Shown here: in pieces, positions 1 to 19,285 of the stretch
How positions within the stretch are numbered: the first letter of the stretch is position 1
Layout: every line of letters begins with the position of its first letter
NCBI GenBank assembly: GCA_903892565.1
Contig: CAITIX010000360.1
Location: 1 to 37,064, forward strand
Direction of reading: 5' to 3'
DNA from: an uncultured Acidobacteriia bacterium
Lineage (GTDB): Bacteria > Acidobacteriota > Terriglobia > Bryobacterales > Bryobacteraceae
DNA: 37,064 nucleotides
The notes under the pieces: model-generated
The model's database searches: none
What the model saw: the letters and a program-made list of their open reading frames with translations, nothing else
What the model was told of the DNA's origin: nothing
Position numbers and translations under genes: made by a program

Positions 1-114
1 CTGTGCAGCGAGAGAGAATCCGCCATTAAGGCCAAGGATTTGGACGGCGTTCCCGACGGCTATCAGCCCACGGACGAAGACCGGAAGACCGAACGTCCCG
101 AGAACAATAACTAA
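1..114 (+). CDS. C-terminal end of an unidentified protein (partial)
   Basis: An open frame enters from the left edge and gives 37 residues before a TAA stop at 112-114. The tail is highly polar, rich in Asp, Glu, Lys and Asn, and ends in three Asn. No domain can be recognised in so short a piece. The frame is judged real because the stop is followed at once by an AGGAG ribosome-binding site that serves the next gene at 128, a typical spacing within an operon. The function is unknown. Confidence 0.5.
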   Translation: MCSERESAIKAKDLDGVPDGYQPTDEDRKTERPENNN

Positions 115-127
115 CAGGAGCGAGTAC

Positions 128-1117: not shown

Positions 1118-1163
1118 GGCGTCGCAACGACGCATCGGAGTCACAAGCATCGGATCGAATTGC

Positions 1164-1197
1164 ACCGGTCGGGCTAGCGCCCGGCCGGTTTTCTTTT
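1164..1197 (+). terminator. Rho-independent terminator
   Basis: A GC-rich hairpin has arms at 1165-1174 and 1179-1188, ten pairs with one T-G wobble, plus an A-T pair at its base. The loop is TAGC. The run TTTTCTTTT follows directly. It sits 47 bp after the stop of the secreted protein and should end that transcript. Confidence 0.8.
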
Positions 1198-1346
1198 GCG
1201 CGCCGGAGAATTCTTGACGCCTACGGCAGAATCTTGGCGTCCGCGATTGCGCCAGCGATTGCCCTGTCAGCCGCACTCGCGAATGATTTCGTCGCCAAGC
1301 GTCATTGATCGGAGCTTGTCCGGCAACTGTCGTTCCGCATCCACTA

Positions 1347-1406
1347 TTCTCGTATCTGTTGTTCTCGCATCTGTTGTTCTCCTATCCGTCGTTCTCCTAT
1401 CGATTG
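1347..1406 (+). repeat. 15-bp minisatellite, four tandem copies
   Basis: Four head-to-tail 15-bp units start at 1347, 1362, 1377 and 1392. They share the pattern TTCTC.TATC.(G/A)T.G: copies 1 and 2 differ at one base, copies 3 and 4 at a few. The last unit runs into a perfect 6-bp hairpin (CGATTG at 1401-1406, CAATCG at 1410-1415). Both strands are open here and would encode pentapeptide repeats, but neither frame has a ribosome-binding site, so it is treated as non-coding. Confidence 0.75.
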
Positions 1407-1527
1407 TTGCAATCGACGGATGCCTGACCACCCTCAACAAGGGCTTATTCATCGATACGAAATGCCGGGGACCAGATATCGAAAAATGAAATGAGTTCAA
1501 TCGTTGAATCGGGAAAGATTAAAATGA

Positions 1528-1556
1528 TTGACAGTCGCTGGGATCGGCCCTACACT
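1528..1556 (+). promoter_or_regulatory. Sigma70-type promoter of the amidase gene run
   Basis: A perfect -35 box TTGACA (1528-1533), a 17-bp spacer and a -10 box TACACT (1551-1556, four of six consensus bases) point to transcription starting near 1563. It is the best promoter match in the long gap before the amidase genes and points toward them. The role is inferred from sequence only. Confidence 0.6.
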
Positions 1557-1872
1557 CGTTACATCTTACACAGCGCACTCCACGCAGCTCCCGTCGCGCC
1601 GCGGTTGTCAATGAAGACCACCGCCCCGTAAGAGTTCTCAGCACTGCCAACCGATCACGGCCTCGTCGGCTGCGGCGGCAAACAAACACACAACCTGTTT
1701 CCCTAAAACTGCCGCCTCGTGCCGCGACAACGACAGTAAATCGTTCGGCAATCGTATCTCAATTTTAACAATTGTGCCGATGGATCCGGCGCGGAGTCGT
1801 TTTGTGAGGCCGTATCAGCATTGAAGTTTCACGCGTCTCGTAACGGACGAAGAGCTCAGAGGACTAACGAAA
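1557..1872 (+). other. Long untranslated leader of the amidase genes
   Basis: If the promoter at 1528 is used, about 310 nt precede the first amidase start. No open frame with a ribosome-binding site was seen. The stretch holds an inverted repeat CAATT-ttaac-AATTG (1760-1774), with CGGCA/TGCCG flanking it asymmetrically, that could be an operator. I do not recognise a known riboswitch. Confidence 0.35.
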
Positions 1873-4233
1873 ATGCGAATGCATCAGACTACAGACAATT
1901 CTTTCGCTCCATCCATCCAGAAACCGGCAACGGGACGAACGCCCAAGTGCCTTCTTCCGGACTTGCGAGTGTTCCTAGGGCTCTGTCTCATGGCGACGGC
2001 AAGTTCTTCGCTATTTGCTCAATCCGGCGCGTTCGCCGTGGAAGAAGCCTCTATTTCAGATATTCAGAATGCGATCCGCACGGGGCGGGCGTCGTGCAAG
2101 CAGGTCGTGCAGATGTACATTGATCGCGCAAAAGCGTACAACGGAGCATGCACTGAGCTCGTCACGAAAGACGGAGCGTCGATTGCTCCCTCCACCGGGA
2201 TGGTGCGTGCGGGTGCGGCGATTCAATACCCTACGAAAACAGTCCCCGCGTCGCAAGTGTTTCCGAACCTCGACCAATACGTAGGGCCTCCCCTCGAGCT
2301 AGGCAAGATGATTACCTCGGCGTCCGATCCAAAAGTGAAGCTGCAATACGGCTGGCGCGTCGGAATTCCGGAAGCCGGACAACTCAATGCCCTCGAAACA
2401 TTGAACGTCCGCGGCGAGCGTTCGACTACGTGTAAAGGCGACTTTGATCGTGCTCCATCGGCGGGCCCCCTTCCTCCGGGAGCTCCTGCAGCGTGCGAAG
2501 AATTTCGAAAGCTGCCCGATGCACTGGAACGCGCCGCAGAGCTGGACAAGCAGTATGGGCAGAATCCCGACCTGGCGAAGCTGCCGATGTACTGCGCCGT
2601 GTTTAATCTCAAAGACTGGTATGACGCGAAAGACATGCGCGGCACCGGCGGCAACGATGTGAATTTCGCGATGGACGTACCGAAGGTGGATTCGCCGGAT
2701 ATCGCCGTCCTCCGCGAGAAGGGCGCGATCATTTTCGCAGTTTCCTCCGCCAGCAACGTAACCGGAGCCCAAGCTGCCGGGCCCAACAAAGCCGCTAGCG
2801 TGTTTCCGGAAACCAATTTGCAGTATGCTCCCTGGAGCGGCCAAGCCTGTAATCCGTACGATACGGCTCGCGTGCCGCGCGGAACCAGCAACGGCTCTGG
2901 CGTCGCGGTATCCGCCAATCTGTCTACCTGCGGGATCTGCGAGCAGACGTCTGCATCCTGCAAGGGTCCGGCGTCCCGCAACAACGTCGTCAATCTTCTG
3001 ACGACGAAGGGCATCCTGATGGACGGCGGCATCACCGGAAAGAATTCGGGCGATCGGGCAGGCATCCACTGCAAGTCGGTCACGGACGCAGCATTGGTGC
3101 TCGACGCCATCAAGGGGTACAAGTCGGACGACATTTATACCGCAATTCCGAAAGGAATCATTCCGGATGAGCCGTACACCAGCTTCCTGGTTCCGGACTC
3201 CAAGGTTTCGGAGAAGCCGCTGAAAGGCGTTCGCGTCGGCATCGTGCGTGAATTTATGGTCAAGCACACCAAGAACGACATTGCCATCAGCGATCAAATC
3301 GATGGCGAAATCAAAATGGTGCTGCGCGACAAACTGGGCGCGACCCTTGTGGAATCCGTGGATCCCATGTATCCGGACGATCCGACGGTGGAGAACATGA
3401 AATACACGTTCCAAGACGCGATCGCAGAGATCCTGCCGCATGCCGTGCCGGAATACTTCTTTAAGAAAACCGCGACGGGTGAGCTCGAATTTGCGGTCCC
3501 GGGCTGGGATGTGAAGAGCGTGGAATACGATGTGGCGCTCTCGCTGCACAAAGCCCCTTTGTCTCCCAAGGTCAATCTGCGCAGCATCGCTAAGGGTTAT
3601 ACCAATCCTTCTAGCTTGCTCCTCACCAATCAGTATTTGGCGGGAAGAGGAGACGAGCGAGTAAAAGATTGGGCCAGTTGGATCGCGAATGCCACGTTCA
3701 AAACCGAAGGGGAAAAGGCGCGCGCGATGAACGCCGCACTGAATCACGATCCGCGTCCACGTCCCGATTCCATCAGCTACCTGGAGATGCAGTCCGTGTT
3801 GCGGATGATCATCCTCAAGGTGATGTACGAGAACAAAATCGACGTCTTCGTCAATCCCGAGCAAACCACCACGCCGTATCTATTAGGCGGAGCGCTCGAG
3901 CCGGAAGTGAACGATCGCGGCACGCAGAGCTGTTGCCAGGGTTTCACCGCAATTCTCGGATCACCGGAGGCCGACGTTCCGGCCGGGTACGTTACAACCA
4001 CCTACGATCCGAAGTATGTGTTGAGCAAGGATAAGACGAAGTACACCGCAGTCACCGGCGACGTGGAAACGAAGCTGCCCCATCCCATGCCGATCAGCAT
4101 GATGTTCTGGGCAGGGCCGGGCTTCGACTCGGACGTGATCAAGGTGGCCTCGGCGTATGAGTCCGCAACGCATCACAGAGTTCCACCTCCCGCATTCGGA
4201 CCGTTATCGACCTATCAAGGCGGAGGCCGCTGA
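1873..4233 (+). CDS. Secreted large amidase-signature hydrolase, paralog 1
   Basis: 786 residues, much longer than the usual 450-550 of amidase-signature enzymes. A hydrophobic signal segment (about residues 31-50) ends in SLFAQ. The fold is recognised by alignment to the canonical amidase at 12265: the helix EEASISDIQNAIRTG, the Lys motif LKDWYDAKDM (K247), the Ser-loop RGTSNGSG and the nucleophile region SASCKGPAS (S362). By spacing (24 residues, as in FAAH S217/S241), the cis-Ser position is Thr338. About 120 extra residues lie between the first helix and the Lys motif. The mature protein has 12 Cys. It should hydrolyse a C-N bond outside the cytoplasm; the substrate is unknown. AGAGGA lies about 10 nt before ATG 1873. 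ATG 1879 is an alternative start. Confidence 0.85.
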   Translation: MRMHQTTDNSFAPSIQKPATGRTPKCLLPDLRVFLGLCLMATASSSLFAQSGAFAVEEASISDIQNAIRTGRASCKQVVQMYIDRAKAYNGACTELVTKDGASIAPSTGMVRAGAAIQYPTKTVPASQVFPNLDQYVGPPLELGKMITSASDPKVKLQYGWRVGIPEAGQLNALETLNVRGERSTTCKGDFDRAPSAGPLPPGAPAACEEFRKLPDALERAAELDKQYGQNPDLAKLPMYCAVFNLKDWYDAKDMRGTGGNDVNFAMDVPKVDSPDIAVLREKGAIIFAVSSASNVTGAQAAGPNKAASVFPETNLQYAPWSGQACNPYDTARVPRGTSNGSGVAVSANLSTCGICEQTSASCKGPASRNNVVNLLTTKGILMDGGITGKNSGDRAGIHCKSVTDAALVLDAIKGYKSDDIYTAIPKGIIPDEPYTSFLVPDSKVSEKPLKGVRVGIVREFMVKHTKNDIAISDQIDGEIKMVLRDKLGATLVESVDPMYPDDPTVENMKYTFQDAIAEILPHAVPEYFFKKTATGELEFAVPGWDVKSVEYDVALSLHKAPLSPKVNLRSIAKGYTNPSSLLLTNQYLAGRGDERVKDWASWIANATFKTEGEKARAMNAALNHDPRPRPDSISYLEMQSVLRMIILKVMYENKIDVFVNPEQTTTPYLLGGALEPEVNDRGTQSCCQGFTAILGSPEADVPAGYVTTTYDPKYVLSKDKTKYTAVTGDVETKLPHPMPISMMFWAGPGFDSDVIKVASAYESATHHRVPPPAFGPLSTYQGGGR

Positions 4234-4234
4234 A

Positions 4235-6505
4235 ATGATTAAGATGAAACCTCTAGCCATTTGCTCCCTCACTCTTGCAGCGGCTTCGTCGCTCTTCGGA
4301 CAAGCTGGCGGCGGATTCGCCGTCGAAGAAGCCTCCATTTCGGACATTCAGAATGCGATCCGCGCGGGGCAGACGTCTTGCAAGCAGGTCGTGCAGATGT
4401 ACATCGACCGCGCCAAAGCCTATAACGGCGTCTGCACGGAGCTCGTCACCAAGGATGGAATGTCGATTCCGGAATCCACCGGGATGGTTCGCGCGGGTGC
4501 GCCGATTCAATACCCAACGAAGACAGTCCCCGCCTCGACGGTGTTCCCGAATCTCGATCAGTACGTCGGACCGCCGATCGAACTCGGAAAGATGATCACG
4601 TCGGTATCCGATCCGAAAGTGAAACTGCAATACGGCTGGCGCGTCGGAATTCCGGAAGCCGGACAGCTCAACGCGCTGGAGACGCTGAACATCCGTGGCG
4701 AGCGCTCCATCACGTGCAAGGGCGATTTTGATCGCGCACCATCCGCTGGACCACTGCCGGCGGGAGCGCCCGCGGCGTGCGAAGAATTTCGAAAGCTCCC
4801 CGACGCTCTGGAACGCGCTGCGGAACTGGACAAGCAGTACGGGCAAAATCCCGACCTGGCGAAGCTGCCGATGTACTGCGCCGTGTTCAATCTCAAAGAC
4901 TGGTACGACGCGAAAGACATGCGCGGCACCGGAGGCAACGATGTAACTTTCGCGATGGACGTGCCGAAGGTCGATTCGCCAGATATTGCAGTGCTTCGCG
5001 AAAAAGGCGCCATCATCTACGCAATCTCGGCGGCCAGCAACGTAACAGGAGCGCAATCCGCAGGCCTCAACAAAGCGGCGTCGACGTTTCCAGAAACCGA
5101 TTTACAGTACGCTCCGTGGAGCGGCCAGACTTGCAATCCTTACGACACGACACGCATTCCGCGCGGGACCAGCAACGGCTCCGGCGTGGCTGTGTCGGCC
5201 AATCTCACCACTTGCGGCATCTGTGAGCAGACGTGGGCGTCTTGCAAAGGGCCGGCCTCCAGAAACAACGTCGTCAATCTGCTGACCACCAAAGGTGTGC
5301 TGATGGATGGCGGCATCACCGGCAAGAACGCGGGAGATCGCGCGGGCATTCATTGCAAGTCGGTTGCCGATGCAGCGCTGGTACTCGATGCAATGAAGGG
5401 CTTCAAGTCGGACGATATTTACACAGCCATTCCGAAAGGAATTATTCCGAAGGAGCCGTACACCAGCTTCCTGGTGCCCGATGCGAAAGTTCCAGATAAG
5501 CCGCTCAAAGGAATGCGCATCGCCATCGCGCGCGAGTTTATGGTGAAGCACACCAAGAACGACGTCGCCATCAGCGATCAGATCAATGAGGAAATCAAGA
5601 CCGTTCTGCGCGACAAACTCGGTGCAACCGTCGTGGAATCGGTGGATCCCATGTATCAGGACGATCCGGCGATTCCGAATTTGACCTACACCTTCGAGGA
5701 CGCCATGGCGGAGATTCTTCCGCATGCGATGCCCGAATACTTCTGGAAGAAAACCGCAACGGGCGAGCTCGAGTTCGCGGTTCCCGGATGGGATGTCAAG
5801 ACCACCGAGTATGCCGTCGCTCTCTCGCTGCACAAAGCTCCGTTGTCACCCAAGATCAATCTGCGCAGCATCGCGCACGGATTCACGAATCTCTCCAGCG
5901 TGTTGTTATCGGATCAATATTTGGCGGCGCGCGGAGATGCGCGAGTGAAAGATTGGGCGAGCTGGGTGGCCAACGCGACTTTCAAAACGGAAGAAGAGAA
6001 GGCGCAGGCACTCAATGCGGCTGCGAACCACGACCCCAGGCCCAAGGCGGGCACCATCAGCTATTTGGAAATGCAGTCCGTGATGCGGATGATCATCCTC
6101 AAGGTGATGTACGAGAACAAGATCGATGTGTTCGTCAATCCCGAGCAGACCACCACGCCGTATCTGTTAGGCGGCGCGCCGGAGCCGGAAGTGAATAGCC
6201 GAGGCACGCAGAGCTGCTGTCAGGAATTCACCGCGCTGATCGGCGGACCGGAGGCGGACGTCCCGGCAGGCTACGTTACAACGAGCGTCGACCCGAAATA
6301 CACGTTGACGAAAGATAAGAAGAAATACATCCCAGTCACCGGAGATGTCGAAACGAAGCTGCCGCATCCCATGCCGATCAGCATGATGTTTTGGGCAGGA
6401 CCTGGCTACGACACCGATGTGATCAAAGCTGCATCGGCCTATGAAGCCGCCACGCACCACAGAGTTCCGCCACCGTCCTTCGGGCCGCTGGCCACGCATC
6501 AATAA
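4235..6505 (+). CDS. Secreted large amidase-signature hydrolase, paralog 2
   Basis: 756 residues from ATG 4235, chosen because GGAGG lies about 9 nt upstream and a normal signal peptide (MIKMKPLAICSLTLAAASSLFGQ) follows; the open frame further upstream overlaps paralog 1. The start is one base after the stop of paralog 1, so translation is probably coupled. The protein is nearly collinear with paralog 1 and the closest to it: between the GWRVGIPEAGQ motif and the Lys motif only a few residues differ. K221, T312 and S336 are the active-site positions, again with Thr for the cis-Ser. The residue two before the nucleophile is Trp (TWAS), where paralogs 1 and 3 have Ser. All 12 mature Cys are kept. 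A duplicated copy that may have a shifted specificity. Confidence 0.85.
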   Translation: MIKMKPLAICSLTLAAASSLFGQAGGGFAVEEASISDIQNAIRAGQTSCKQVVQMYIDRAKAYNGVCTELVTKDGMSIPESTGMVRAGAPIQYPTKTVPASTVFPNLDQYVGPPIELGKMITSVSDPKVKLQYGWRVGIPEAGQLNALETLNIRGERSITCKGDFDRAPSAGPLPAGAPAACEEFRKLPDALERAAELDKQYGQNPDLAKLPMYCAVFNLKDWYDAKDMRGTGGNDVTFAMDVPKVDSPDIAVLREKGAIIYAISAASNVTGAQSAGLNKAASTFPETDLQYAPWSGQTCNPYDTTRIPRGTSNGSGVAVSANLTTCGICEQTWASCKGPASRNNVVNLLTTKGVLMDGGITGKNAGDRAGIHCKSVADAALVLDAMKGFKSDDIYTAIPKGIIPKEPYTSFLVPDAKVPDKPLKGMRIAIAREFMVKHTKNDVAISDQINEEIKTVLRDKLGATVVESVDPMYQDDPAIPNLTYTFEDAMAEILPHAMPEYFWKKTATGELEFAVPGWDVKTTEYAVALSLHKAPLSPKINLRSIAHGFTNLSSVLLSDQYLAARGDARVKDWASWVANATFKTEEEKAQALNAAANHDPRPKAGTISYLEMQSVMRMIILKVMYENKIDVFVNPEQTTTPYLLGGAPEPEVNSRGTQSCCQEFTALIGGPEADVPAGYVTTSVDPKYTLTKDKKKYIPVTGDVETKLPHPMPISMMFWAGPGYDTDVIKAASAYEAATHHRVPPPSFGPLATHQ

Positions 6506-6517
6506 GGGAGCCAGTTC

Positions 6518-8812
6518 ATGAAGATTCTCAGCGCTTCAGGAATTTCCGCCGGATGGATCGCCACATTACTGTTGGCGCAGCCGGTGTTTGCCCAGACCGG
6601 CGGATTCCACATTGAAGAAGCGTCGATCGGCGGAATTCAGGCCGCTATTCGTTCCGGGCAGACATCGTGCAAGCAGGTAGTGCAGATGTATCTGGACCGC
6701 GCCAGAGCGTACAACGGCGTGTGCACGGAGCTGATGACGAAAGATGGCGCGCCGATCCCCGCATCCACCGGCATGGTGCGCGCAGGAGCGCTTCTCCAAT
6801 ATCCGACCAAAACGGTTGCGGCCTCGACCGTATTTCCCGACTTCGATCAATATCAAGGCCCGCCCTTCGAGCTCGGCAAGATGGTGACATCCGTTTCCGA
6901 TCCGAGCGTGAAGCTGCAGTACGGACTGCGCGTGGGGATCCCCGAAGCGGGTCAGCTCGACGCTCTCGAAACACTCAACGTTCGCGGCGAACGTTCGATC
7001 ACCTGTAAAGGCGATTTCGATCGCGCGCCGTCCGCTGGACCGCTGCCTGCGGGCGCTCCCGCTGCGTGCGAAGAGTTTCGCAAAATGCCCGATGCGCTCG
7101 AACGCGCCGCGGAACTCGACGCGCAATACGGCCGCAATCCCGACGTGGCAAAGCTCCCGATGTACTGCGCGGTCTTTTCACTGAAAGATTGGTACGACGC
7201 GAAAGACATGCGAGCCACGGGCGGCAACGATGTGAATTTTGCGATGGATGCGCCGAAGTTCGATTCTCCGGATATTGCGACGATTCGCAGTAAGGGTGGC
7301 ATTATTTTTGCGGTCGCGAACGCGGAAAACGTGGGCGGCCCTGCGGCTGCGGGTCCAAATAAGGCGGACGTCGTCCTCCCGATGGGGAATCTGCAGTACA
7401 GCCCCTGGGCCGGGCAAGCTTGCAATCCGTACGACACGGCGCGCGTGCCGCGCGGCACCAGCAACGGCTCAGCTGTGTCAGTCGCCGCGAATTTATCTAC
7501 GTGTTCGATTTGCGAACAGACGTCGGCATCCTGCAAAGGTCCTGCATCCAGAAACAATGTCGTGAATCTGCTCCCGACGAAGGGCATCGCGATGGATGGC
7601 GGATTCAGCAAGTACTCGGGAGATCGCGCCGGCATTCACTGTAAGACAGTCGAGGACGCAGCATTGGTGCTCGACGCGGTGAAGGGGTACGAGTCCAGCG
7701 ACATTTACACGGCCATTCCGAAGGGCCTCATCCCGAAGGAGCCTTACGCCAAGGCTTTAGTAACGGACAGCAAGGTGAACGACAAGCCACTGGCGGGCGT
7801 GCGCATCGGCGTTGTGCGGGAGTTCATGGTGAAGCACAGCAAGAACGACGTGGTGATCAGCGACCAAATCGACCAGGAAATCAAATCCGTACTGCGCGAC
7901 AAGCTCGGCGCGACGATTGTGGAATCGAAAGATCCTTTGTATCCCGACGATCCGAGCGTCCCGAACATGACGTACACGTTCCAGGACGCGATGGCCGAGA
8001 TTTTGCCGCACACCGTGCCCGAATACTTTTACAAGAAGACGAACAAGGGCGAGCTGGAGTTTGCCGTTCCGGGATGGGACGTGAAGAGCGTTGAGTATGC
8101 CGTCGCGCTGTCTTTGCACAAAGCGCCGCTCTCCGAGAAGATGAACCTCCGCACGGTGGCCGACGAAGGAAGATTTCCGAACCCGTCCGGCTTGCCGTTG
8201 ATGAATCGCTATCTACTGGAGCGCGGCGACGCGCGCGTGAAAGATTGGAAAAGCTGGGTGGATAACGCAACCTTCAAGACCGCCGAAGGCGCGGCGCGAG
8301 CCAAGAATGCCGCGGCGATCACGGACGCTCGTCCGCGCACCGACTACATCAACTACCAGGAGATGCAAGCGGTCATGCGCATGATCGTACTGAAGGTGAT
8401 GTACGAAAACAAAATCGACGTCTTCGTCAATCCAGAGCAAACTACACCGCCCTACATTCTGGGAGGAGCACTGGAGCCAGACGTGAACAATCGACCGTCG
8501 AGGAGTTGCTGCCAAGGTTTCACGGCGCTGCTCGGCGGACCGGAAGCCGAAGTGCCTGCTGGATACACCACGGTTACCTACGACCCGAAATATGTACTAA
8601 GCGCCGACAAGAAGAAATACATTCCCGTAACGGGAGATGTCGAAACGAAGCTGCCGCATCCCATGCCGATCAGCATGATGTTCTGGGCCGGACCCGGCTT
8701 CGACGCCGACGTGATCAAAGTTGCTTCGGCCTATGAATCAGCGACGCACCACCGAATCCCCCCCCCTGCGTTTGGACCCCTGCCGGCCCAAGCGCATGGA
8801 TCCAGCCACTGA
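6518..8812 (+). CDS. Secreted large amidase-signature hydrolase, paralog 3
   Basis: 764 residues. A signal peptide ends at PVFAQ, and AAGGGAG lies just before ATG 6518, 12 bp after paralog 2. It is the most diverged of the three but keeps the whole layout: the roughly 120-residue insertion, Lys motif K223, Thr314 at the cis-Ser position, nucleophile Ser338 and all 12 Cys. Local differences are a shortened GGFSKYSGD loop where the others have GGITGKN(S/A)GD, and a longer VADEGRFPNPSG loop near residue 550. These loops are where specificity could differ. The C-terminal ATHHRIPPP motif matches the end of the small amidase at 12265. Confidence 0.85.
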   Translation: MKILSASGISAGWIATLLLAQPVFAQTGGFHIEEASIGGIQAAIRSGQTSCKQVVQMYLDRARAYNGVCTELMTKDGAPIPASTGMVRAGALLQYPTKTVAASTVFPDFDQYQGPPFELGKMVTSVSDPSVKLQYGLRVGIPEAGQLDALETLNVRGERSITCKGDFDRAPSAGPLPAGAPAACEEFRKMPDALERAAELDAQYGRNPDVAKLPMYCAVFSLKDWYDAKDMRATGGNDVNFAMDAPKFDSPDIATIRSKGGIIFAVANAENVGGPAAAGPNKADVVLPMGNLQYSPWAGQACNPYDTARVPRGTSNGSAVSVAANLSTCSICEQTSASCKGPASRNNVVNLLPTKGIAMDGGFSKYSGDRAGIHCKTVEDAALVLDAVKGYESSDIYTAIPKGLIPKEPYAKALVTDSKVNDKPLAGVRIGVVREFMVKHSKNDVVISDQIDQEIKSVLRDKLGATIVESKDPLYPDDPSVPNMTYTFQDAMAEILPHTVPEYFYKKTNKGELEFAVPGWDVKSVEYAVALSLHKAPLSEKMNLRTVADEGRFPNPSGLPLMNRYLLERGDARVKDWKSWVDNATFKTAEGAARAKNAAAITDARPRTDYINYQEMQAVMRMIVLKVMYENKIDVFVNPEQTTPPYILGGALEPDVNNRPSRSCCQGFTALLGGPEAEVPAGYTTVTYDPKYVLSADKKKYIPVTGDVETKLPHPMPISMMFWAGPGFDADVIKVASAYESATHHRIPPPAFGPLPAQAHGSSH

Positions 8813-8963
8813 CGCTTACATGAGGAGCGGCGAAGCTCCTGAACTATCCGCGCTGTGTTAGCGCTGCCAAGGGCGATCCTTCACAAGGTCGTCTTTGGAC
8901 GCATTTCCAAAACCTAGACGCGGGCTCCTGGGATACCAGACCCAAAAATGGAGGATTTAGTTC
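8813..8963 (+). other. Spacer with two small hairpins before the receptor gene
   Basis: The 151-bp gap contains AGGAGC/GCTCCT (8823-8840) and GCGCT/AGCGC (8850-8864) hairpins. Neither is followed by a T-run, so they look like processing or RNA-stability structures, not a terminator. Read-through from the amidases into the receptor gene is likely. Confidence 0.4.
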
Positions 8964-11900
8964 ATGTCCACTTTGAAAACTATCGTGACAAATACAGGCG
9001 CTTCGATAAACCGTTGGCGCGCCTTCGGACGTGACGGAACGTTTCTCGCACTGAAACTTGCCGTCATAGGCACACTGCTAGCGGGATCCGTGTTGGCACA
9101 AACCGTCGGCGGCACCATCACCGGAACCGTCAAAGATCCACAAGGCAGCCTGATCCCGACAACAGCTGTAAAGCTGGTGAACGTCGAGACGGGCGTCACC
9201 ACCGAGCAATTGACAAATAGTGCCGGCATCTATCGTGCCGCGAATCTGCAGCCCGGCCACTACGACGCAACTGTGACGAATCCGGGCTTCTCGACCGGCG
9301 TGCAGCATAACGTCAATCTAAACGTCGGCGCCGAGGTCACCGTAGATTTTGCGCTTACCGTCGCCGGCGTCGCTTCAAGCGTCGAAGTGACCGGCCAAGT
9401 CTCCGCGGTCGATACGGCGTCATCGACACTGACCTACGACGTCTCTGGGACCACAATCCGAGAGCTTCCCTTGAACGGACGCGACTTTACGTCGCTTGCG
9501 GCTCTGCAGCCCGGCGTCGCATCGATGGGCACCACCGGTGGAATCCGCGCGGGCTTGGGCAACAAGTTGAGCATCTCGGGAACGCGCCCGTCGACGAATA
9601 ACTTCTTGTTCGACGGCATCAGCATCAACGATTCCGGCAACAATACCCCAGGCAGTGTCCTTGGTGTAACGCTCGGTGTGGACGCGGTCGAACAGTTCAC
9701 CGTTCTCACCGACACGTTCTCCGCCGAATACGGGCGCGCAGCCGGCGGTGTGGTCAACGCCGTCACGCGATCCGGAACGAACCAATGGCATGGCTCCGCG
9801 TTTTACTTCGGACGCAATAGCGCGCTCGACGCCCATAACTTCTTCGATAAACCAGGTAGCGCCAAACCCGCATTTCGCCGAAGTCAGTTTGGAGGCACCG
9901 CGGGCGGCCCCGTCATTAAGGACAAGACGTTCTGGTTCTTCGACTACGAAGGCATCACGCAGGGCTTGGGAACGACTACGCTTTCGACGGTTCCTTCCGC
10001 AGCACTGCGCTCCGGTCTGTTCGTAAATGGGAACGGCACCGTCACGCAATACACCGTGGATCCGAACGTGGCAAAAGCGCTGGCACTATATCCTTTGCCG
10101 AATGCCGGACTCATCGGAAATGGAAATACGGGAACATTTTCGGGAGTTCTGGATAGCCGGGCGAATGAGAAATATTTTCTCGTGAAGCTCGACCATACGA
10201 TTTCGCCGAAAGACAGCCTGCACGGCAGCTACTTCTGGGATAGCGGCAATACCAGTACGCCCGACGCCTTCCTGAATGAGAGAACAGCGCAAGTATCGAA
10301 ACGTCAGGCGGGTAGTACCGAATACACGCGCACCATCAGCCCCACGGTTCTGAACGTCGCGCGAGTCGGTGTCGCCCGCACGATCTTCACATCCGGCTCC
10401 GTGACGGACATTCTCAATCCGGCGATCAATGACACGAGTCTTGGATTTCTTCCGGGCTTGGACGTCGGAGGCATTGTGGTCTCGGGGCTGACCTCGCTCA
10501 GCGCGGGTCCCAATGCGCTGGACTATAGCTTCGCCAACTACACCTCTTTCCAGGGTTACGATAGCGTGTACATCACCAAGGGGACTCACTCGCTAAAGTT
10601 CGGTGTCAACGCCGAGAGAATGCGCTATAACAGCTCGCAACCAAATCTTTCGGGCGGATCCTGGTCCTATGGTTCGCTGAACGGCTTCATCACAAATGGT
10701 CTGCAGGGAACGAATCCATCGATCACGTTCTCGGCTACGTTCTTGGGTACGAACGACGAACGCGGCATGCGCCAAAGCATCTACGGCGGCTACGCACAGG
10801 ATGACTGGAAAGCGACCAACCGGCTGACGATCAACATGGGATTGCGCTATGAAATCGCGACCATCCCAACCGAGTCCACCAACCGTATCGCGCTTCTCCG
10901 CAATCTCTCGGATAGCGCACCTACCTTGGGACAGGCGATCGACACGAAGAATCCAACGTTGCACAATTTCTCGCCGCGCGTCGGCCTTGCGTGGAATCCT
11001 TTCGGTGACGGGAAGACCGCTATTCGCGCCGGTTTCGGATTCTTCGATAATCTCCCGCTGTTGTATCTCTACGACACGCCGCTGTTCCGATCGTTCCCCT
11101 ACTTCACACAAGGCGTGCTGACGAACGTGACGGCTCCCGGCCTGTATGGCGCGTTTCCCGGAAACGGCTACAAGCTGTTCAGCTCCGGTCAGTTGCGAAC
11201 GGCCTATGTGGATCCAGCGCCTCCCCGCTCCTACACAATGCAGTGGAATTTCAATATTCAACGCCAACTCGGATGGGGATGGACGGTGTCTGCCGGCTAC
11301 GTCGGATCGCGTGGCGTGCATTTGGTGCAGGTGGAACGAAACATGAACACGGTGCAGCCGACGCCTACGCCCTTTGGATATTTCTATGGGCCGACGGCGA
11401 CCTCGCAGAAGCTGAATCCAAATTTCGCGACCATCAACACGACGGACACATGGAACGCGGATGCCCACTATGAAGCTTTACACGTGAGCATGTCTCGTCC
11501 CTTGTTAAAGGGCTTGCAGGTGCAAGGATCGTACGCCTTTGCCAAGAGCATCGACAACTCCTCGTCAACATCGTCGGTGACCGCGGGCACGGGCTACCCG
11601 AGCGCGATCGGAAATCCGGCGCCGCTGTTCCCTGAAATCAACAAGGGACTCTCGGACTACAATCTGCGCAACAACGGAACTCTCAGTCTGGTGTACGACG
11701 TTCCTGGTTGGAATACAAAAATGAAGCCGCTTCACTTTGTGACGAGCGGCTGGGAATCGGGCACCATCTTCCATACGCAAAGCGGATTGCCGTTCACTCC
11801 GGTATTGAGCGCCGATCAAGCCGGTGAAACCAAAGCCGACACGACCGGGACCGCATTGGGCGAACGGCCCAATCTGGTGCTCAGCTCGGATTGCACCAAT

Positions 11901-12254
11901 CCCGTCACCGGCAATATCAACGGCTACGTCAATGCGAGTTGCTACACGTATCCTGCGCCGGTCACCTACAACGGCGTGAAAGGAACGGTGCTTGGCAACG
12001 TCGCACGCAATTCACTGATCGCTCCTGGTCTAACGAACCTGGACTTCTCGCTGATCAAGAACGACAAGATCACCGAGCGTTTCACCACGCAGTTCCGCTT
12101 CGAGTTCTTCAACATCTTGAACCATCCTAATTTTGCCGCACCGGCGACCAGCATCTTCGACGGCAACGGCAACCTGGTCAGCAACTTTGGCCGCATCACG
12201 TCCACCACAAACCAGGGCCGCCAGATTCAGTTCGGCCTGAAGATCCGGTTCTAA
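8964..12254 (+). CDS. TonB-dependent outer-membrane receptor, Oar-like
   Basis: 1096 residues. An extended signal peptide ends near SVLAQ. Residues about 48-130 form a carboxypeptidase-regulatory-like Ig domain (GGTITGTVKDPQGSLIPTTAV). A plug follows with ELPLNGRDFTSLAALQPGV and LFDGISIND, then a beta-barrel with many aromatic-rich strands, ending in Phe (LKIRF) as barrel proteins do. GGAGGA sits about 9 nt before the ATG. Families of this type bind substrates too large for porins and import them using TonB-ExbBD energy; none of those energy genes is in the window. Its position between secreted amidases suggests it takes up their substrate or product, which is inference. No SusD-like partner is present. 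Confidence 0.92.
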   Translation: MSTLKTIVTNTGASINRWRAFGRDGTFLALKLAVIGTLLAGSVLAQTVGGTITGTVKDPQGSLIPTTAVKLVNVETGVTTEQLTNSAGIYRAANLQPGHYDATVTNPGFSTGVQHNVNLNVGAEVTVDFALTVAGVASSVEVTGQVSAVDTASSTLTYDVSGTTIRELPLNGRDFTSLAALQPGVASMGTTGGIRAGLGNKLSISGTRPSTNNFLFDGISINDSGNNTPGSVLGVTLGVDAVEQFTVLTDTFSAEYGRAAGGVVNAVTRSGTNQWHGSAFYFGRNSALDAHNFFDKPGSAKPAFRRSQFGGTAGGPVIKDKTFWFFDYEGITQGLGTTTLSTVPSAALRSGLFVNGNGTVTQYTVDPNVAKALALYPLPNAGLIGNGNTGTFSGVLDSRANEKYFLVKLDHTISPKDSLHGSYFWDSGNTSTPDAFLNERTAQVSKRQAGSTEYTRTISPTVLNVARVGVARTIFTSGSVTDILNPAINDTSLGFLPGLDVGGIVVSGLTSLSAGPNALDYSFANYTSFQGYDSVYITKGTHSLKFGVNAERMRYNSSQPNLSGGSWSYGSLNGFITNGLQGTNPSITFSATFLGTNDERGMRQSIYGGYAQDDWKATNRLTINMGLRYEIATIPTESTNRIALLRNLSDSAPTLGQAIDTKNPTLHNFSPRVGLAWNPFGDGKTAIRAGFGFFDNLPLLYLYDTPLFRSFPYFTQGVLTNVTAPGLYGAFPGNGYKLFSSGQLRTAYVDPAPPRSYTMQWNFNIQRQLGWGWTVSAGYVGSRGVHLVQVERNMNTVQPTPTPFGYFYGPTATSQKLNPNFATINTTDTWNADAHYEALHVSMSRPLLKGLQVQGSYAFAKSIDNSSSTSSVTAGTGYPSAIGNPAPLFPEINKGLSDYNLRNNGTLSLVYDVPGWNTKMKPLHFVTSGWESGTIFHTQSGLPFTPVLSADQAGETKADTTGTALGERPNLVLSSDCTNPVTGNINGYVNASCYTYPAPVTYNGVKGTVLGNVARNSLIAPGLTNLDFSLIKNDKITERFTTQFRFEFFNILNHPNFAAPATSIFDGNGNLVSNFGRITSTTNQGRQIQFGLKIRF

Positions 12255-12264
12255 GGAGACGAAC

Positions 12265-13872
12265 ATGAGAAGATTACGAATTTCCAAGAAGCTCTGTATC
12301 ACGGGTGCGTTAGCCGTTGCGTCTTTACCGGCGTTCGGAGCCAGCGCCGGGGGTGAACCGTTCCAGCTGATGGAAACAACTATCAGCCAGGTACACGCGG
12401 CTTATAAGTCTGGCAAGATGTCGGCGCATCAATTGACGCAGGAGTATCTGGATCGAATCGCCGCTTACGATCAGAAAGGTCCCACGATCAACTGTGTGAT
12501 TTCTCTGAACCCAACGGCGATGGAGGAAGCGGACAAACTCGACGCGGCGTACAAGAAGTCCGGCCCTGTCGGCCCACTGCACGGCATTCCCATCCTGGTG
12601 AAAGACCAGGTGGATGCCGCTGGCATGCCGACAACATTGGGATCGGTTGTGTTCAAAGACTATCGTCCGCCACAGGATTCCTTCGTTGTCGCGAAGCTTC
12701 GCAAAGCGGGCGCGATCATTCTCGGCAAAACCACACTCGGCGAATTAGGCGGTGGCGATTCTTTCGGATCCTTGTATGGCGCAACTCATAACCCCTACGA
12801 TTTGGCGCGTACGGTCGGAGGATCGTCGGGCGGTTCGGGCGCGTGTTTGTCGTCGAATTTTTCCACGGTCGCGGTGGGCGAAGAAGGGTTCGCTTCGATT
12901 CGCAGACCATCCACGTGGAATGACGTCGTGGGTATGCGCCCGACAGCGGGCTTAGCAAGCCGCAGCGGAATGTACGACGGATATCCGTCGCCCGTAGGTT
13001 CGCTCGGTCCAATGGCACGCACTGTGGAAGACTTGGCGAAGTTGCTCGACGTGATGGTCGGCTACGATCCCGAAGATCCGGTCACCGCATTGGGCGTCGG
13101 CCACGTCCCCGAGAGCTACACGAAATCTCTCGATAAGAATGGACTGAAGGGCGCTCGCATCGGCGTCATCCGCGAATCGTTCGGCAACGGATCCGAACCT
13201 TCCTCTGAGGACTTCAAGAAAGTCGATGTCGAGTTCCAGAAGGCCATCGCGGAACTGAAGGCGGCCGGAGCGATTGTTATCGACAACATCGTGATTCCGG
13301 ATCTCAACGCGCTCATTGCGAAGCGAGCCGGGAGCAACGAAGAGTCGGCGGAGAGCCTGAAGACATGGATGGCTCGCAACCCGAACTCTCCTTACAAGAC
13401 GCGCACCGATGTGCAGAACTCGCCGGAAGTTTCGAAGATCCTTCCGCCGTCAAAGGCCGCGCAATGGATGAAGACGCCGGCGGATAATTCCGTGAAATAT
13501 GCGGAATATCTCAAAGCCCGCGATCAGCTTGCGATCAACGTCATGAAGGTTATGGCAGACAACAAGCTGGATGCCATTGTGCACAAGTCCGTGGAACACC
13601 AGCCGACGTTGATCGAAGACGGCATGAATCCGCCGTATGTGAACAGCAAGGGCGTGCCGCATCTCAACACGTTCCTTGTCTATGCGGCGTCGATGACCGT
13701 GCCTGCGGGATTTACGTCCGACAATCTGCCGGTTGGTATTACGTTCTTCGGACGGCCGTATAGCGAGCCAGTGCTCTTGAAGCTGGCATACGCGTATGAG
13801 CAAGCGACGCATCATCGCATTCCTCCGAAGTCCGTACCGGCACTTCCTGCAGTGAGTGCGGCGCTCCACTAG
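12265..13872 (+). CDS. Secreted amidase, canonical amidase-signature enzyme
   Basis: 535 residues with a signal peptide ending near AFGAS. The amidase-signature triad is complete: Lys113 in LVKDQVDAAGMPTTLGS, cis-Ser187 in GGSSGGSG, and nucleophile Ser211 in EEGFASIRRPS. The usual DTGGS before the nucleophile is replaced by EEGFAS. The mature part has only two Cys, unlike the three large paralogs upstream. AAGGAG overlaps the receptor stop codon, so the two genes are co-translated. Nearest described types are secreted amidases and amide-oligomer hydrolases; the substrate cannot be told from sequence. It may finish the breakdown begun by the large enzymes, or act on imported material in the periplasm. 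Confidence 0.9.
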   Translation: MRRLRISKKLCITGALAVASLPAFGASAGGEPFQLMETTISQVHAAYKSGKMSAHQLTQEYLDRIAAYDQKGPTINCVISLNPTAMEEADKLDAAYKKSGPVGPLHGIPILVKDQVDAAGMPTTLGSVVFKDYRPPQDSFVVAKLRKAGAIILGKTTLGELGGGDSFGSLYGATHNPYDLARTVGGSSGGSGACLSSNFSTVAVGEEGFASIRRPSTWNDVVGMRPTAGLASRSGMYDGYPSPVGSLGPMARTVEDLAKLLDVMVGYDPEDPVTALGVGHVPESYTKSLDKNGLKGARIGVIRESFGNGSEPSSEDFKKVDVEFQKAIAELKAAGAIVIDNIVIPDLNALIAKRAGSNEESAESLKTWMARNPNSPYKTRTDVQNSPEVSKILPPSKAAQWMKTPADNSVKYAEYLKARDQLAINVMKVMADNKLDAIVHKSVEHQPTLIEDGMNPPYVNSKGVPHLNTFLVYAASMTVPAGFTSDNLPVGITFFGRPYSEPVLLKLAYAYEQATHHRIPPKSVPALPAVSAALH

Positions 13873-13880
13873 AAGGCAAG

Positions 13881-14909
13881 ATGAAAACGGCGCGCGCAAA
13901 GATTGATTCACGGGATTGGACGACTGCGACGGTACTCATCGCGGTCGTCCTGGCCCTATTCGCGCGCCCATCGCTGGGCGCCCAGGCGCACGGCGGCGCC
14001 ATAGTCGCTATCGTCAATGGCGCGCCCATCCTGCAAGAAGATCTCGACGGCCAATTCGATCTGCAGCAGCAGATTTACGAAAGCAAAACTAACGTCCTCC
14101 AGAAACTGATCTCGAACAAGCTACTGGAACTGGCGGCCAGCAAAAGCGGACAGAGTGTTGATGAATATCTAAAGACCCAGATCGACGCAAAGATCGGACT
14201 ACCGTCCGAGGGCGAACTGCATGGTTTCTATTTCGCGCAAAGGGATCGTTACCAGAAATCATTCGCGGCGGCTCGTGCCGAAGTTGCACGAGATTTGCGC
14301 GATGCCGAAATTCAAGAAGCTCGCAAGGAGTTCGCCGAGAAGTTGCGCGCCGAGGCTAAGGTCGCCATTTTATTGGAAGCGCCGCGCGTGCCCATCAGCA
14401 CCGGAGATTCACCGCGGCGCGGTGCCGAACAGGCGGCGGTGACAGTGACCGAATTCGGCGATTATCAGTGTCCCTTTTGCAGAGGTGTGCAGGAGACACT
14501 GCGCGAAGTGAAAGACAAATACGGAGACAAGGTCGCATTTGTTTTTAAAGACTATCCTCTGCGGGAGATTCATCCGCAGGCGCAGGACGCGGCGGAGGCG
14601 GCGTCCTGCGCGCGCGAGCAGGGACACTTTTGGGAACTTCACGACGCGATGTTCGCTTCGCCAAGCCTGACCCCGGACGTATTGAAGGGACTCGCCACGA
14701 AGAACGACCTCAACGTGGACCAATTTGAGCAGTGCCTGGACACGCACAAGTTCGCCGCGCACATCGATGCCGATCGGGAGCAGGGCTCAAAAATGGGAAT
14801 GTCGGGAACGCCCGCGTTTAACATCAACGGCGTGGTTTTGACCGGAGCCCAGCCGCGTGCCGAATTCGAACGAATCATCGATCAGGAATTGCTGCACGCA
14901 AAACGTTAG
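13881..14909 (+). CDS. Exported DsbA-fold oxidoreductase with SurA-like N-terminal region
   Basis: 342 residues. A single N-terminal hydrophobic segment (ATVLIAVVLALFARPSLG) is a signal peptide or anchor. Residues about 40-160 resemble the SurA/PpiC N-terminal chaperone helices (AIVNGAPILQEDLD, followed by NKLLELAASKSG). Residues about 180-340 are a thioredoxin/DsbA-like domain with catalytic CPFC (C197, C200), a cis-Pro loop SGTPAF and two further Cys (AASCAREQ, FEQCLDT). It should form or shuffle disulfides in the envelope. It starts 8 bp after the small amidase, and three neighbours are exported proteins with 12 Cys each, so they are likely clients. A general DsbA that merely sits here is the alternative. 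Confidence 0.85.
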   Translation: MKTARAKIDSRDWTTATVLIAVVLALFARPSLGAQAHGGAIVAIVNGAPILQEDLDGQFDLQQQIYESKTNVLQKLISNKLLELAASKSGQSVDEYLKTQIDAKIGLPSEGELHGFYFAQRDRYQKSFAAARAEVARDLRDAEIQEARKEFAEKLRAEAKVAILLEAPRVPISTGDSPRRGAEQAAVTVTEFGDYQCPFCRGVQETLREVKDKYGDKVAFVFKDYPLREIHPQAQDAAEAASCAREQGHFWELHDAMFASPSLTPDVLKGLATKNDLNVDQFEQCLDTHKFAAHIDADREQGSKMGMSGTPAFNINGVVLTGAQPRAEFERIIDQELLHAKR

Positions 14910-14986
14910 CGGAGGCGAGCAAGAATCAACGAGCTCCACGATATCTGAAACAAGTCAGAAGGACGCACCGCGAGGAAATCAAATCG

Positions 14987-16441
14987 ATGATGAACCGCAG
15001 CAGAACCAAACCCGCTATCGCCATAGCCACCGGATTTCTTCTTGTGGTCGCGATCCAGCCGTTGCGCAGCGCAGGCAATCCGCCGGATTGGACCAACAAG
15101 GCGGTGGAGGAAAAGATTTGGAAGCTACTGGACGACGGAAAATCCACGTTCGTCTCACTGCCTACGCCGGAGTTCATGTCTCTTGGTGAAGGCTTCGATC
15201 TTCCCGATGGCGGCAAATCCGTTACCGATCTCGCTCTCAAGGCGCCAGGTGGTGCGTTTGATCCGCGCGATGTCGCGAAAATTTCCGCTGAAAAGCTCGG
15301 ATACAAGGCCGAGTGGGTGGTGGAGCGCTACAAGCATTACAACCTCGATTGGGACATCACGGGCTTGAAGCTCACCAGTCTCAATCCTGACGCGAAGAAT
15401 TATCCGTGGTTCATCATCATGAACGGCGGGGCTGCGAACTTCTACGAATTCTTTGTGGATCTGAAGAACCGTCCAGGCTGGGCGCAATTCTTGGCGCAGA
15501 AACTAAACGTCATGATCGTGACGATCCCCGGCAACTTCAAATATGGAGGATGGGAGCAACCGATTGAGAGCCTCAATCGACAACCCCAATACGTGCTCGA
15601 CAAAGATCTCCCCATGCAGGAGGCGGAAGTTCGCAACGTTCTCGTGAATAACCAAGTCGTCATGCATGGACTCAAGAGCCTCATTCTGAAGAACACGCAA
15701 GGCGACATCCTGCTAATTGGCCACTCGACGTCGGGCGAACTCTCGATGCTGTCCTATCAGGATCCGGAACTTGCGGCGCGCCTGAAAGGCCGCTACTTCG
15801 GCTGGGGTAGCGGCGGTCCGGCGAGACTTGCATTGACAAAGGCGATCAAGATTCCGAGTCGCGGCGGTGATGGAGAAGGTGGCGGCGGAGGCAAACGTCC
15901 ACTCGAACTCCTAAGTCGTCGTGATGTGCCGACGTATAGCCACGGATACAGTTGGTTCCTGAATCCTCTGTACGAGCCCGGCATGTCCGTGGCGGATATC
16001 GCTGGCGCGTGGCTTGCCGAGGAGGCTCGCCGACGTCCGCAATTTAAGCAACAGATTCAGGACCTGGAGCACGGCGGCGCCATCGACCAGAAAGGCCGCG
16101 TCGAGGTGGAACTGGCGAACCTACTGAAGAAAAGCGGCAACCCTTGGGGCGTGAATCTCGAGGACGTCGACAAGGATCTATTCGCCACGCACTTCACGCG
16201 CATGGATGGCTACAAGAAGATGGTGTGGACGGTGGCGCACTTCGACCGCAATCATTGGCTGCCGGAGGATCCGATGAAGGCTCCCGAAGTCTACGTTGCG
16301 AATGAGTACCGCCGCGTCAATCCGACCGCGCAGGTCCGGCTGATGGTGTGGGATCCCCACATGACGCATTACGGACATCTGGAGTTGCCCAAGCAACTGG
16401 CAGCCGCAGATTACAGCGTTGTGCGGTGGCTGATGAAGTGA
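14987..16441 (+). CDS. Exported alpha/beta-hydrolase-like protein
   Basis: 484 residues with a signal peptide (AIAIATGFLLVVAIQPLRSAG). The centre carries a nucleophile elbow, LLIGHSTSGE, with Ser247 as likely nucleophile. A preceding strand (NVMIVTIPGNFKYGG) and a C-terminal segment with His candidates (WDPHMTHYGHLELP) fit an alpha/beta hydrolase. The N-terminal 100 residues and a Gly-rich loop (GGDGEGGGGG, near residue 300) match nothing I know. There are no Cys. It lies 77 bp after the DsbA-like gene on the same strand and probably belongs to the same unit. An esterase, lipase or peptidase activity is possible; I cannot name the substrate. GAGGAAA lies about 8-14 nt before the ATG. Confidence 0.7.
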   Translation: MMNRSRTKPAIAIATGFLLVVAIQPLRSAGNPPDWTNKAVEEKIWKLLDDGKSTFVSLPTPEFMSLGEGFDLPDGGKSVTDLALKAPGGAFDPRDVAKISAEKLGYKAEWVVERYKHYNLDWDITGLKLTSLNPDAKNYPWFIIMNGGAANFYEFFVDLKNRPGWAQFLAQKLNVMIVTIPGNFKYGGWEQPIESLNRQPQYVLDKDLPMQEAEVRNVLVNNQVVMHGLKSLILKNTQGDILLIGHSTSGELSMLSYQDPELAARLKGRYFGWGSGGPARLALTKAIKIPSRGGDGEGGGGGKRPLELLSRRDVPTYSHGYSWFLNPLYEPGMSVADIAGAWLAEEARRRPQFKQQIQDLEHGGAIDQKGRVEVELANLLKKSGNPWGVNLEDVDKDLFATHFTRMDGYKKMVWTVAHFDRNHWLPEDPMKAPEVYVANEYRRVNPTAQVRLMVWDPHMTHYGHLELPKQLAAADYSVVRWLMK

Positions 16442-16460
16442 CGCCGCCGGGAGGGCGCGT

Positions 16461-17111
16461 TTACTGAATGTAGGCCGGGCCCCTTCGGGCGATGACCACT
16501 TCAGACGTGCGGTCGTGCGGATATTTCAGCAGCGCTGCATCCGTGGGAGCAAAATCCAAGCGGCTGGAAACCAAGTCATTCACAGAGAGCGAGGATTGAG
16601 CGATTCCGGTTCGCGAGTGCACCATCGTCCCGGCCAGCACATGATACAACTCGTGTGCCAGCACGCGAGCAAGCGCCCGGCCCAGATTGAGATTAGAATT
16701 CTGCCCCGGGCGAGCGGCCAAACTGGAATGCAAAAAGGATTGTACCTGGCCACAATCGATTTCAATGAACGGCAGGACTTCTCCATTGATGGTGCGAGCT
16801 CGACCAAGCGGTAGATCCGCGTTTGGCGCAGAGACAACCCTTTCCTTCTGGCATTGTCCACGAAAATCGACAACCACCAGGTTGCTCATGCTGTCGGAAC
16901 CAGACACGTCGTTTCGGTCTCGCCATTGCAACAAGAGGGAAGAGGGCTCGAGAACGCGCTCGATCTCGTCTTTTATTCCTTGCAGCAGGAAAGCCGGGGC
17001 GGGATCGTTGAATTGATAAACGATGGTGACGGGAGAAGACGTCGCGCTCGTCCCCGAGAATACCGGGGCCGCAGACAAAACGAGAACTGCCGCGCAGAAC
17101 AAGGCGCGCAT
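16461..17111 (-). CDS. Secreted HExxH metalloprotease-like protein
   Basis: 216 residues with a clear signal peptide (MRALFCAAVLVLSAAPVFSG). The motif AHELYHVLAG gives H153, E154 and H157, a zinc-binding HExxH with a catalytic Glu. A third His, H165, lies 8 residues after H157. This resembles the metzincin arrangement HExxHxxGxxH but is two residues longer, so assignment to that clan is not secure. Similar short exported proteins are common in acidobacteria, and I know of no tested function. An AGGAG box lies about 10 nt before the ATG. It is convergent with the hydrolase gene, only 19 bp apart, with no clear terminator between them. Confidence 0.7.
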   Translation of the reverse strand: MRALFCAAVLVLSAAPVFSGTSATSSPVTIVYQFNDPAPAFLLQGIKDEIERVLEPSSLLLQWRDRNDVSGSDSMSNLVVVDFRGQCQKERVVSAPNADLPLGRARTINGEVLPFIEIDCGQVQSFLHSSLAARPGQNSNLNLGRALARVLAHELYHVLAGTMVHSRTGIAQSSLSVNDLVSSRLDFAPTDAALLKYPHDRTSEVVIARRGPAYIQ

Positions 17112-17512
<401 letters not shown>

Positions 17513-17517
17513 GATAC

Positions 17518-17546
17518 ATGGTAGCGAAACGCGACGAAGGCGTCAA
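17518..17546 (-). promoter_or_regulatory. Promoter of the initiator tRNA gene
   Basis: On the minus strand: TTGACG (complement of 17541-17546), a 17-bp spacer and TACCAT (complement of 17518-17523). The start would fall right at the mature tRNA 5' end. The -10 box covers an in-frame ATG of uppS at 17518, which argues against that codon as the uppS start. Confidence 0.65.
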
Positions 17547-17571
17547 ATTTTTCGTACCATGGTCCTTACGC

Positions 17572-19148: not shown

Positions 19149-19174
19149 AGCATTCGCGAACTTTTCCAGATCGC

Positions 19175-19285
19175 AACAGCGGATCGGGGTAAAACCCCTG
19201 GCGTGAGCCGGGGGATACATCCGAGCTCTATCGTTCTAGCGAATGTATCCCCGCACTGACGTGCGGGGTTTTACCTGCTGCTGTT
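19175..19285. repeat. Paired, inverted REP-like palindromic element
   Basis: Two units face each other. Unit A runs 19188-19220 on the plus strand, unit B runs 19243-19275 on the minus strand. Both begin GGTAAAACCCC and end GGGG(G)ATACAT, and each folds into its own 8-bp hairpin: CCCCTGGC/GCCGGGGG (19195-19214, one T-G wobble) and CCCCGCAC/GTGCGGGG (19249-19268). The arms also pair with each other (11 bp outer, 10 bp inner), and AACAGC/GCTGTT (19175-19180, 19280-19285) closes the whole. TTTTT follows, so it may also terminate the uppS-cdsA transcript. No transposase gene is in the window. Confidence 0.75.

Follow-up and report, generated by a model that had tools for sequence, protein, structure and literature searches.

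A possible TonB-linked amide-scavenging locus built on a receptor-amidase core in an uncultured member of the Bryobacteraceae

Background

The described systems that come closest to the locus presented here are the peptide amidase Pam of Stenotrophomonas maltophilia, the SusC/SusD polysaccharide utilisation loci and the Oar-PopC pair of Myxococcus xanthus. In the last of these, according to PMC6434023, Oar and the Ton system are needed for the secretion of PopC from the periplasm, in E. coli too. We analysed a stretch of 37,064 nucleotides (contig CAITIX010000360.1, hereafter the window) from an uncultured member of the Bryobacteraceae (Acidobacteriota) whose genome is a draft of 4.6 Mb in 454 contigs. 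It carries a run of seven genes encoding three large proteins of the amidase signature (AS) family (amiA, amiB and amiC, together component L), an Oar-type TonB-dependent receptor (R), a small amidase (amiS, component S), a DsbA-type protein (dsb) and an alpha/beta-hydrolase-fold protein (abh). We tentatively propose, with somewhat less than even confidence, that this run is an amide-scavenging, TonB-linked locus built on an R+S+L core.

A receptor-amidase core in a second genus

The three components recur as a same-strand run, in the order R-S-L with L last, in two genomes of a second genus (g8) of the same family, G589 (locus L054) and G115 (locus L033), the DNA of which is 93.7% identical. 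Compared with the window, the G589 proteins show 51% (R, over its length), 65% (S) and 71% (L) identity, and their genes are separated by gaps of about 30 and 15 bp. The receptor gene is intact in G589 and split by a frameshift in G115 (L033, about 12073-12085); as the G589 copy is intact, we read this frameshift as either an assembly error or a recent break. Because the gene is split, the pieces of the G115 receptor missed the cut of E<=1e-200 applied to receptors. In both genomes the run is preceded, at about 250 bp and on the same strand, by a gene for a Na+:dicarboxylate (SDF) symporter (PF00375); this family imports aspartate, glutamate and C4-diacids. Since the window has the order L-L-L-R-S where g8 has R-S-L, the content of the core is conserved and its order is not.

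In a receptor tree of 12 rows, which included neither the split copy of G115 nor the strongest remaining match of the order sample (G051, 47%, with a stop inside), the window receptor pairs with the G589 copy with a support of 100/100. Within G115, too, the window receptor is matched best by the receptor of the g8 locus (620 + 505 bits; 56% and 50%), followed by a protein scoring 614 bits at 39%. By sequence comparison, R, S and L of g8 and of the window are probably orthologous. Moreover, four of the nine AS matches of the window genome fall within the run, and this concentration, the paralogy of amiA, amiB and amiC and the occurrence of R, S and L together elsewhere indicate that the run is more than a chance assembly.

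dsb and abh as local additions

The sequence-only reading had presented all seven genes as one candidate new envelope system whose amidases and receptor were exported parts of an operon-like unit. Conservation of three components beyond one strain upholds part of that view; the seven-gene order was found in no other sampled genome and, by the refuting condition which that reading had set, is not conserved. Synteny of the seven genes was rejected on the distribution of the last two: at E<=1e-20, abh has no match among the 149 other genomes of the order sample and, at E<=1e-8, relatives in only 3 of the 326 other genomes of the phylum sample, while dsb relatives stand elsewhere, without linkage, in all six loci viewed. 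The proposed system thus shrinks to a three-part core plus local additions, which is what dsb and abh look like from these comparisons.

The dsb protein scores above the cut-offs of DSBA and Thioredoxin_4 (69.6 and 95.1 bits) and carries the motif given in Table 1, which places it in the DsbA family; its SurA_N_3 score is 24.5 bits against a Pfam cut-off of 27.2. The six loci viewed were drawn from its eleven best relatives (<=46% identity), two of them on contigs of 4-6 kb, and no amidase, receptor or abh match was seen near dsb in any of the six. Given that these relatives are unlinked to L, a role for dsb in the run is a guess, although it would suit the cysteine-rich L proteins. In genome G001 (L049, 3963-5990), two dsb-type matches share one 675-aa frame, an apparent tandem fusion.

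The abh protein matches no NCBIfam family and no Pfam family at E<=0.001 (at E<=5, one match far below its cut-off). Foldseek matches it to lysosomal acid lipase (E 2.6e-8), its predicted model (mean pLDDT, the predicted local distance difference test, of 69) aligns with gastric lipase 1k8q (Z 17.2, root-mean-square deviation (rmsd) 4.2, 292 residues aligned), and GHSxxGE is present in 4/4 rows of its alignment; on this predicted fold and nucleophile elbow, abh is assigned to the alpha/beta hydrolase superfamily. Among its three distant relatives, that of G433 (L042, 6794-9663) begins about 2 bp after an AS amidase, with the start as chosen in this analysis, and that of G374 has both an Amidohydro_3 and an Oar gene in its vicinity. 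Further on in the G433 locus, a cupin gene and an Oar gene occupy the opposite strand.

It is quite possible, if short of probable, that the run consists of two units, namely a genuine R+S+L core and, behind it, dsb and abh as mere neighbours with unrelated jobs. Neither gene is matched in the g8 loci (19.9 kb of G115 and 9.8 kb of G589), and the other contexts of the dsb relatives point the same way; on the other side stand the gaps of 8 and 77 bp that precede dsb and abh without a terminator-like site, and two of the three distant abh relatives, one of which adjoins an AS amidase while the other has an Oar gene nearby. This division is compatible with the scavenging reading of the core.

Receptor, small amidase and direction of transport

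The receptor combines OMP_b-brl_4 (591 bits) with CarboxypepD_reg and Plug domains and hence has an Oar-type architecture. Such barrels are abundant, with 7 to at least 40 in each of ten acidobacterial genomes checked and, at first look, 74, 193 and 260 candidates in three genomes. The presence of an Oar gene as a neighbour was therefore rejected as proof by itself, and the orthology of the receptor was examined instead. To our knowledge, almost all acidobacterial Oar-type barrels lack a known cargo. The amiS protein scores 290 bits against PF01425 and belongs to the AS family, the full triad K113-S187-S211 being present in 10/10 rows (amiS and nine relatives). Its nearest solved relative is Pam (E 2e-71), and it scores 343 against NCBIfam PRK08137, below the cut-off of 534; by sequence it appears Pam-like.

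In the sequence-only reading, an amide would be cut outside or at the surface, taken up through the receptor and hydrolysed further in the periplasm. The strongest alternative to uptake would reverse the direction of transport: by analogy with Oar-PopC (PMC6434023), the Oar-type protein would serve as an exit gate for a TonB-energised secretion of the co-encoded, disulfide-bonded amidases from the periplasm to the outside. The N-terminal extension of the M. xanthus Oar is, according to that source, a PF13620 domain, as in the window receptor, and the conserved partners of our receptor are exported enzymes. We nevertheless consider secretion unlikely. The likeness to the M. xanthus protein is one of domain architecture and not of compared sequences, and this architecture makes up 28% of all TonB-dependent transporters (TBDTs) counted in PMC6434023, TBDTs being mostly known as importers. 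In addition, a signal peptide is absent from PopC but apparently present in the amidases, and the symporter gene beside the g8 locus fits uptake.

Distribution beyond the family

At E<=1e-100, L was found in 3/237 genomes of the family (the window genome, G115 and G589). Seven of the 150 order-sample genomes, including the window genome, have L matches above E 1e-50, among which only that of G115 is close (72%). In the phylum samples, again with the window genome included, L is present in 8/396 genomes at E<=1e-60 and S in 7/267 at E<=1e-120. Of the seven other genomes with L (7/395 others), four (G177, G289, G297 and G366) also belong to the six other genomes with S. S at >=59% identity adjoins an Oar-type gene in three of eight non-window loci (g8, taken once, G130 and G244), against about 3-7% expected per locus, a rough figure based on the numbers of first-look candidates and on a gene length that was assumed. 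In G130 the receptor next to S is a distant Oar protein (26%) and not the orthologue of the window receptor. As for the surroundings of L, an AS amidase lies directly upstream of an L protein in G354, and L has Amidohydro_3 enzymes nearby in both G366 and G297, in the latter together with a divergent Oar gene.

A patchy distribution of this kind would also fit a niche trait such as detoxification or silencing, in which the amidases would cut amide-bearing antibiotics or acyl-amide signals of competitors and the receptor would sense or admit the molecule. One AS enzyme, a fatty-acid amide hydrolase, does have a structure determined together with an acyl-homoserine lactone (title of PDB 8ey1). 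However, no regulator or efflux gene is present among the seven and the g8 symporter fits nutrition, so that we regard this explanation as improbable.

The large amidases

The L proteins are 750-825 aa long. PF01425 scores of amiA, amiB and amiC are 91.5, 87.2 and 93.6 bits (cut-off 27), the match being limited to the middle third of the proteins, and alignment with amiS reveals an insertion of about 120 residues near their N terminus. The predicted structure of amiC (mean pLDDT 60, 306 residues under 50) aligns with Pam over residues 30-751 (Z 24.0, rmsd 3.8, 439 residues aligned), followed by other AS structures (Z 20-23), and Pam is also the nearest solved relative of the L profile (E 6e-23).

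Thirteen L proteins, including the window copies, were aligned, with the triad register set by alignment to Pam. Lys223 and Ser338 (amiC numbering) are invariant in 13/13. The cis-Ser position (T314 in amiC) is occupied by Thr in 7/13 (the window copies, G115, G366 and both G297 proteins) and by Ser in 6/13, and by nothing else. In view of this Thr, amiA-C do not contain the strict Ser-cisSer-Lys triad; their PF01425 scores and fold are those of the AS family. We therefore file them, by sequence comparison, as a divergent AS-fold branch and not as canonical amidases. Eight cysteines are invariant across the 13 proteins, and the cysteine pairs 69/302, 167/180 and 664/665 (amiC numbering) are jointly present or jointly absent in 13/13 rows, a pattern which is what disulfides would give and part of which shared descent could explain.

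The three window copies share 76-86% identity, and the tree separates them as one clade from g8, where L is single (support 100/99), which indicates a triplication within the window lineage. Their dS (synonymous divergence) exceeds 1 and their dN/dS (nonsynonymous to synonymous ratio) is about 0.08-0.10 (rough Nei-Gojobori, NG86, counts), from which it follows that all three copies have long been kept under purifying selection. The possibility that they are pseudogenes or recent duplicates was ruled out by the same values (dS >1, dN/dS ~0.1). That amiA-C are inactive pseudo-enzymes, i.e. binding or surface proteins that have lost the cis-Ser of the triad, would account for the Thr but is very improbable given the restriction of this position to Thr or Ser, the invariant Lys and nucleophile Ser and the purifying selection.

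A fourth L relative (45%), with Ser at the cis-Ser position, is encoded on contig C6 of the same genome (L005, 9183-11660). Its neighbours encode Kelch and SMP-30/gluconolactonase proteins according to Pfam and, judged by eye, two major facilitator superfamily transporters and catabolic-looking proteins.

Proposed function

In the amide-scavenging reading, a compound containing amides would have its C-N bonds cleaved outside the cytoplasm by the exported S and L amidases. The Oar-type receptor, energised by TonB, would bring this compound, or the earliest products of its cleavage, through the outer membrane. Triplication of L in the window lineage plausibly widened the substrate range or the dose; dsb, having joined the run, may aid disulfide formation in the cysteine-rich L enzymes, and abh, having joined it too, may act on a side group or a second bond. 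From the combination of a TonB receptor, exported amide hydrolases and, in g8, an inner-membrane symporter for dicarboxylates or acidic amino acids, we infer uptake and breakdown of a nutrient bearing amides, for example peptide amides or N-acyl amino acids, as a suitable role.

Several observations weigh against this reading. The core was found in just two genera of one family, the other five order-sample genomes with L hold only its 36-37% branch, and dsb and abh are outside the conserved core, one of the three abh relatives (G280) having neither an amidase nor an Oar gene nearby. A simple binomial with 7/395 gives about 1e-6 for the co-presence of S and L in 4/6 genomes and 5e-5 for 3/5, but this calculation ignores shared ancestry and mixes different samples, and G289 and G366 belong to the same family. 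In all four distant genomes having both, S and L are on different contigs; the L of G289 is of a 38% branch with a stop inside, and the S of G177 is at 45%. The abundance of Oar-type receptors weakens adjacency as an argument; five of the eight S loci have no Oar neighbour, several of them ending near a contig end, and none of the three remoter S loci (G076, G079 and G146; 41-46%) has an Oar gene adjoining S. Finally, amiA-C have Thr where a strict triad has cis-Ser, and a gap of 151 bp separates amiC from the receptor.

A wider generalisation, which we regard as doubtful, would be a dedicated, TonB-linked amide system of Acidobacteriota in which an Oar transporter is paired with a disulfide-rich, extracytoplasmic AS branch using a Ser-cisThr-Lys triad, either importing amides or secreting enzymes. 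Among the titles listed by a literature search, with most subscription papers outside its reach, none concerns such an amidase-receptor locus or a Thr at the AS cis-Ser position. A conserved pairing of an Oar receptor with amide hydrolases suggests a concrete and testable substrate class, and the locus is a place to ask in which direction Oar proteins carry their cargo. With the L proteins, a hydrolase fold that has been studied in depth gains a branch that is secreted, rich in cysteine and altered at one catalytic residue.

Organisation of the locus

Seven plus-strand open reading frames (ORFs) were verified at 1873-16441 (Table 1). The listed start of amiB (4157) overlaps amiA, and starting instead at the ATG of 4244 yields a signal peptide of normal appearance; after this correction the intergenic gaps measure 10, 12, 151, 10, 8 and 77 bp. 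The consensus scan found no plus-strand terminator-like site in the six gaps; besides the strong hairpin listed in Table 1, plus-strand matches lie at 1772-1794 (weak, in the leader), 2706 (in amiA), 6370 (in amiB) and 16948. Promoter-like sites number 5 against 6.8 in shuffles and are thus not enriched, which makes the promoter and terminator scan weak evidence. This layout would be compatible with a single transcript. An Rfam scan of 1-20000 returned nothing but the tRNA, and hence no Rfam riboswitch in the leader.

A hydrophobic N-terminal stretch is present in 7/7 proteins (1.93-3.34, against 1.78 for the 95% level of internal segments), as judged by a crude score that is not SignalP and with the stretch of amiA and of the receptor beginning about 32 residues in. 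The descriptions of a tight, terminator-free cluster and of an entirely exported set (three large amidases, an Oar receptor, a small amidase, a DsbA-type protein and a hydrolase) given by the sequence-only reading are confirmed, the former by the ORF check and consensus scan and the latter by Pfam, fold and hydrophobic N-termini. G+C content at third codon positions (GC3) is 66-71% in the run and 68-76% in seven other genes measured, which is not decisive on foreign origin.

Table 1. Features of the seven-gene run and its leader in the window
Feature	Coordinates	Strand	Evidence
Terminator-like hairpin closing the upstream gene (128-1117)	1164..1189	+	11 pairs, 9 G-C, T-rich tail; consensus match only
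Promoter-like site TTGACA-17-TACACT, ~316 nt before amiA	1528..1556	+	10/12 matches, best in 1000-17500; consensus match only
amiA, large exported AS-type protein (L), 786 aa	1873..4233	+	PF01425; triad Lys and Ser kept, cis-Ser = Thr
amiB, large exported AS-type protein (L), corrected start	4244..6505	+	PF01425
amiC, large exported AS-type protein (L), 764 aa	6518..8812	+	PF01425; predicted Pam fold
Oar-type TonB-dependent receptor (R), 1096 aa	8964..12254	+	CarboxypepD_reg, Plug, OMP_b-brl_4
amiS, small exported amidase (S), Pam/PRK08137-like, 535 aa	12265..13872	+	PF01425, full triad
dsb, exported DsbA-type thioredoxin domain, SurA-like N-terminal region	13881..14909	+	CPFC at residue 197
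abh, exported alpha/beta-hydrolase-fold protein, unnamed family, 484 aa	14987..16441	+	GHS motif at residue 245

Around the run, the plus-strand gene at 128-1117 encodes an exported-looking protein of 329 aa without a Pfam family, of a kind common in Acidobacteriota. Convergent with the run, the minus-strand gene at 16461-17111 encodes an exported-looking protein of 216 aa with a HELYH (zincin-like) motif and no Pfam family. The listed start of the uppS ORF (17476) overlaps the tRNA-Met gene of the opposite strand (17436-17512), and an ATG near 17518 is a likelier start.

Comparison with known systems

Pam (PDB 1m21, 1m22 and 5ac3) is the nearest solved relative of both amiS and the L profile, from which the L proteins differ by their length, their N-terminal insertion, their eight invariant cysteines and, in the window clade, the Thr in place of cis-Ser. 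As in a SusC/SusD polysaccharide utilisation locus, a TonB receptor with a CarboxypepD_reg domain stands beside exported degradative enzymes; unlike such a locus, the window run has amide hydrolases in place of glycosidases, and since Pfam detected no SusD-type family among the seven proteins it contains no SusC/SusD pair. With Oar-PopC, as described in PMC6434023, it shares the Oar domain architecture and the presence of exported hydrolases, but its enzymes are unrelated to the subtilisin-type PopC, and the relation is one of adjacency here and of functional dependence in M. xanthus. Other loci of Acidobacteriota likewise bring exported-type C-N hydrolases near L (L020, L021) or near an abh relative (L041); two of these loci, L021 and L041, also contain an Oar gene, and all three differ from the window in hydrolase family (Amidohydro_3) and gene order. 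We regard the window locus as a variant of a receptor-plus-degradative-enzyme arrangement that is known as a kind.

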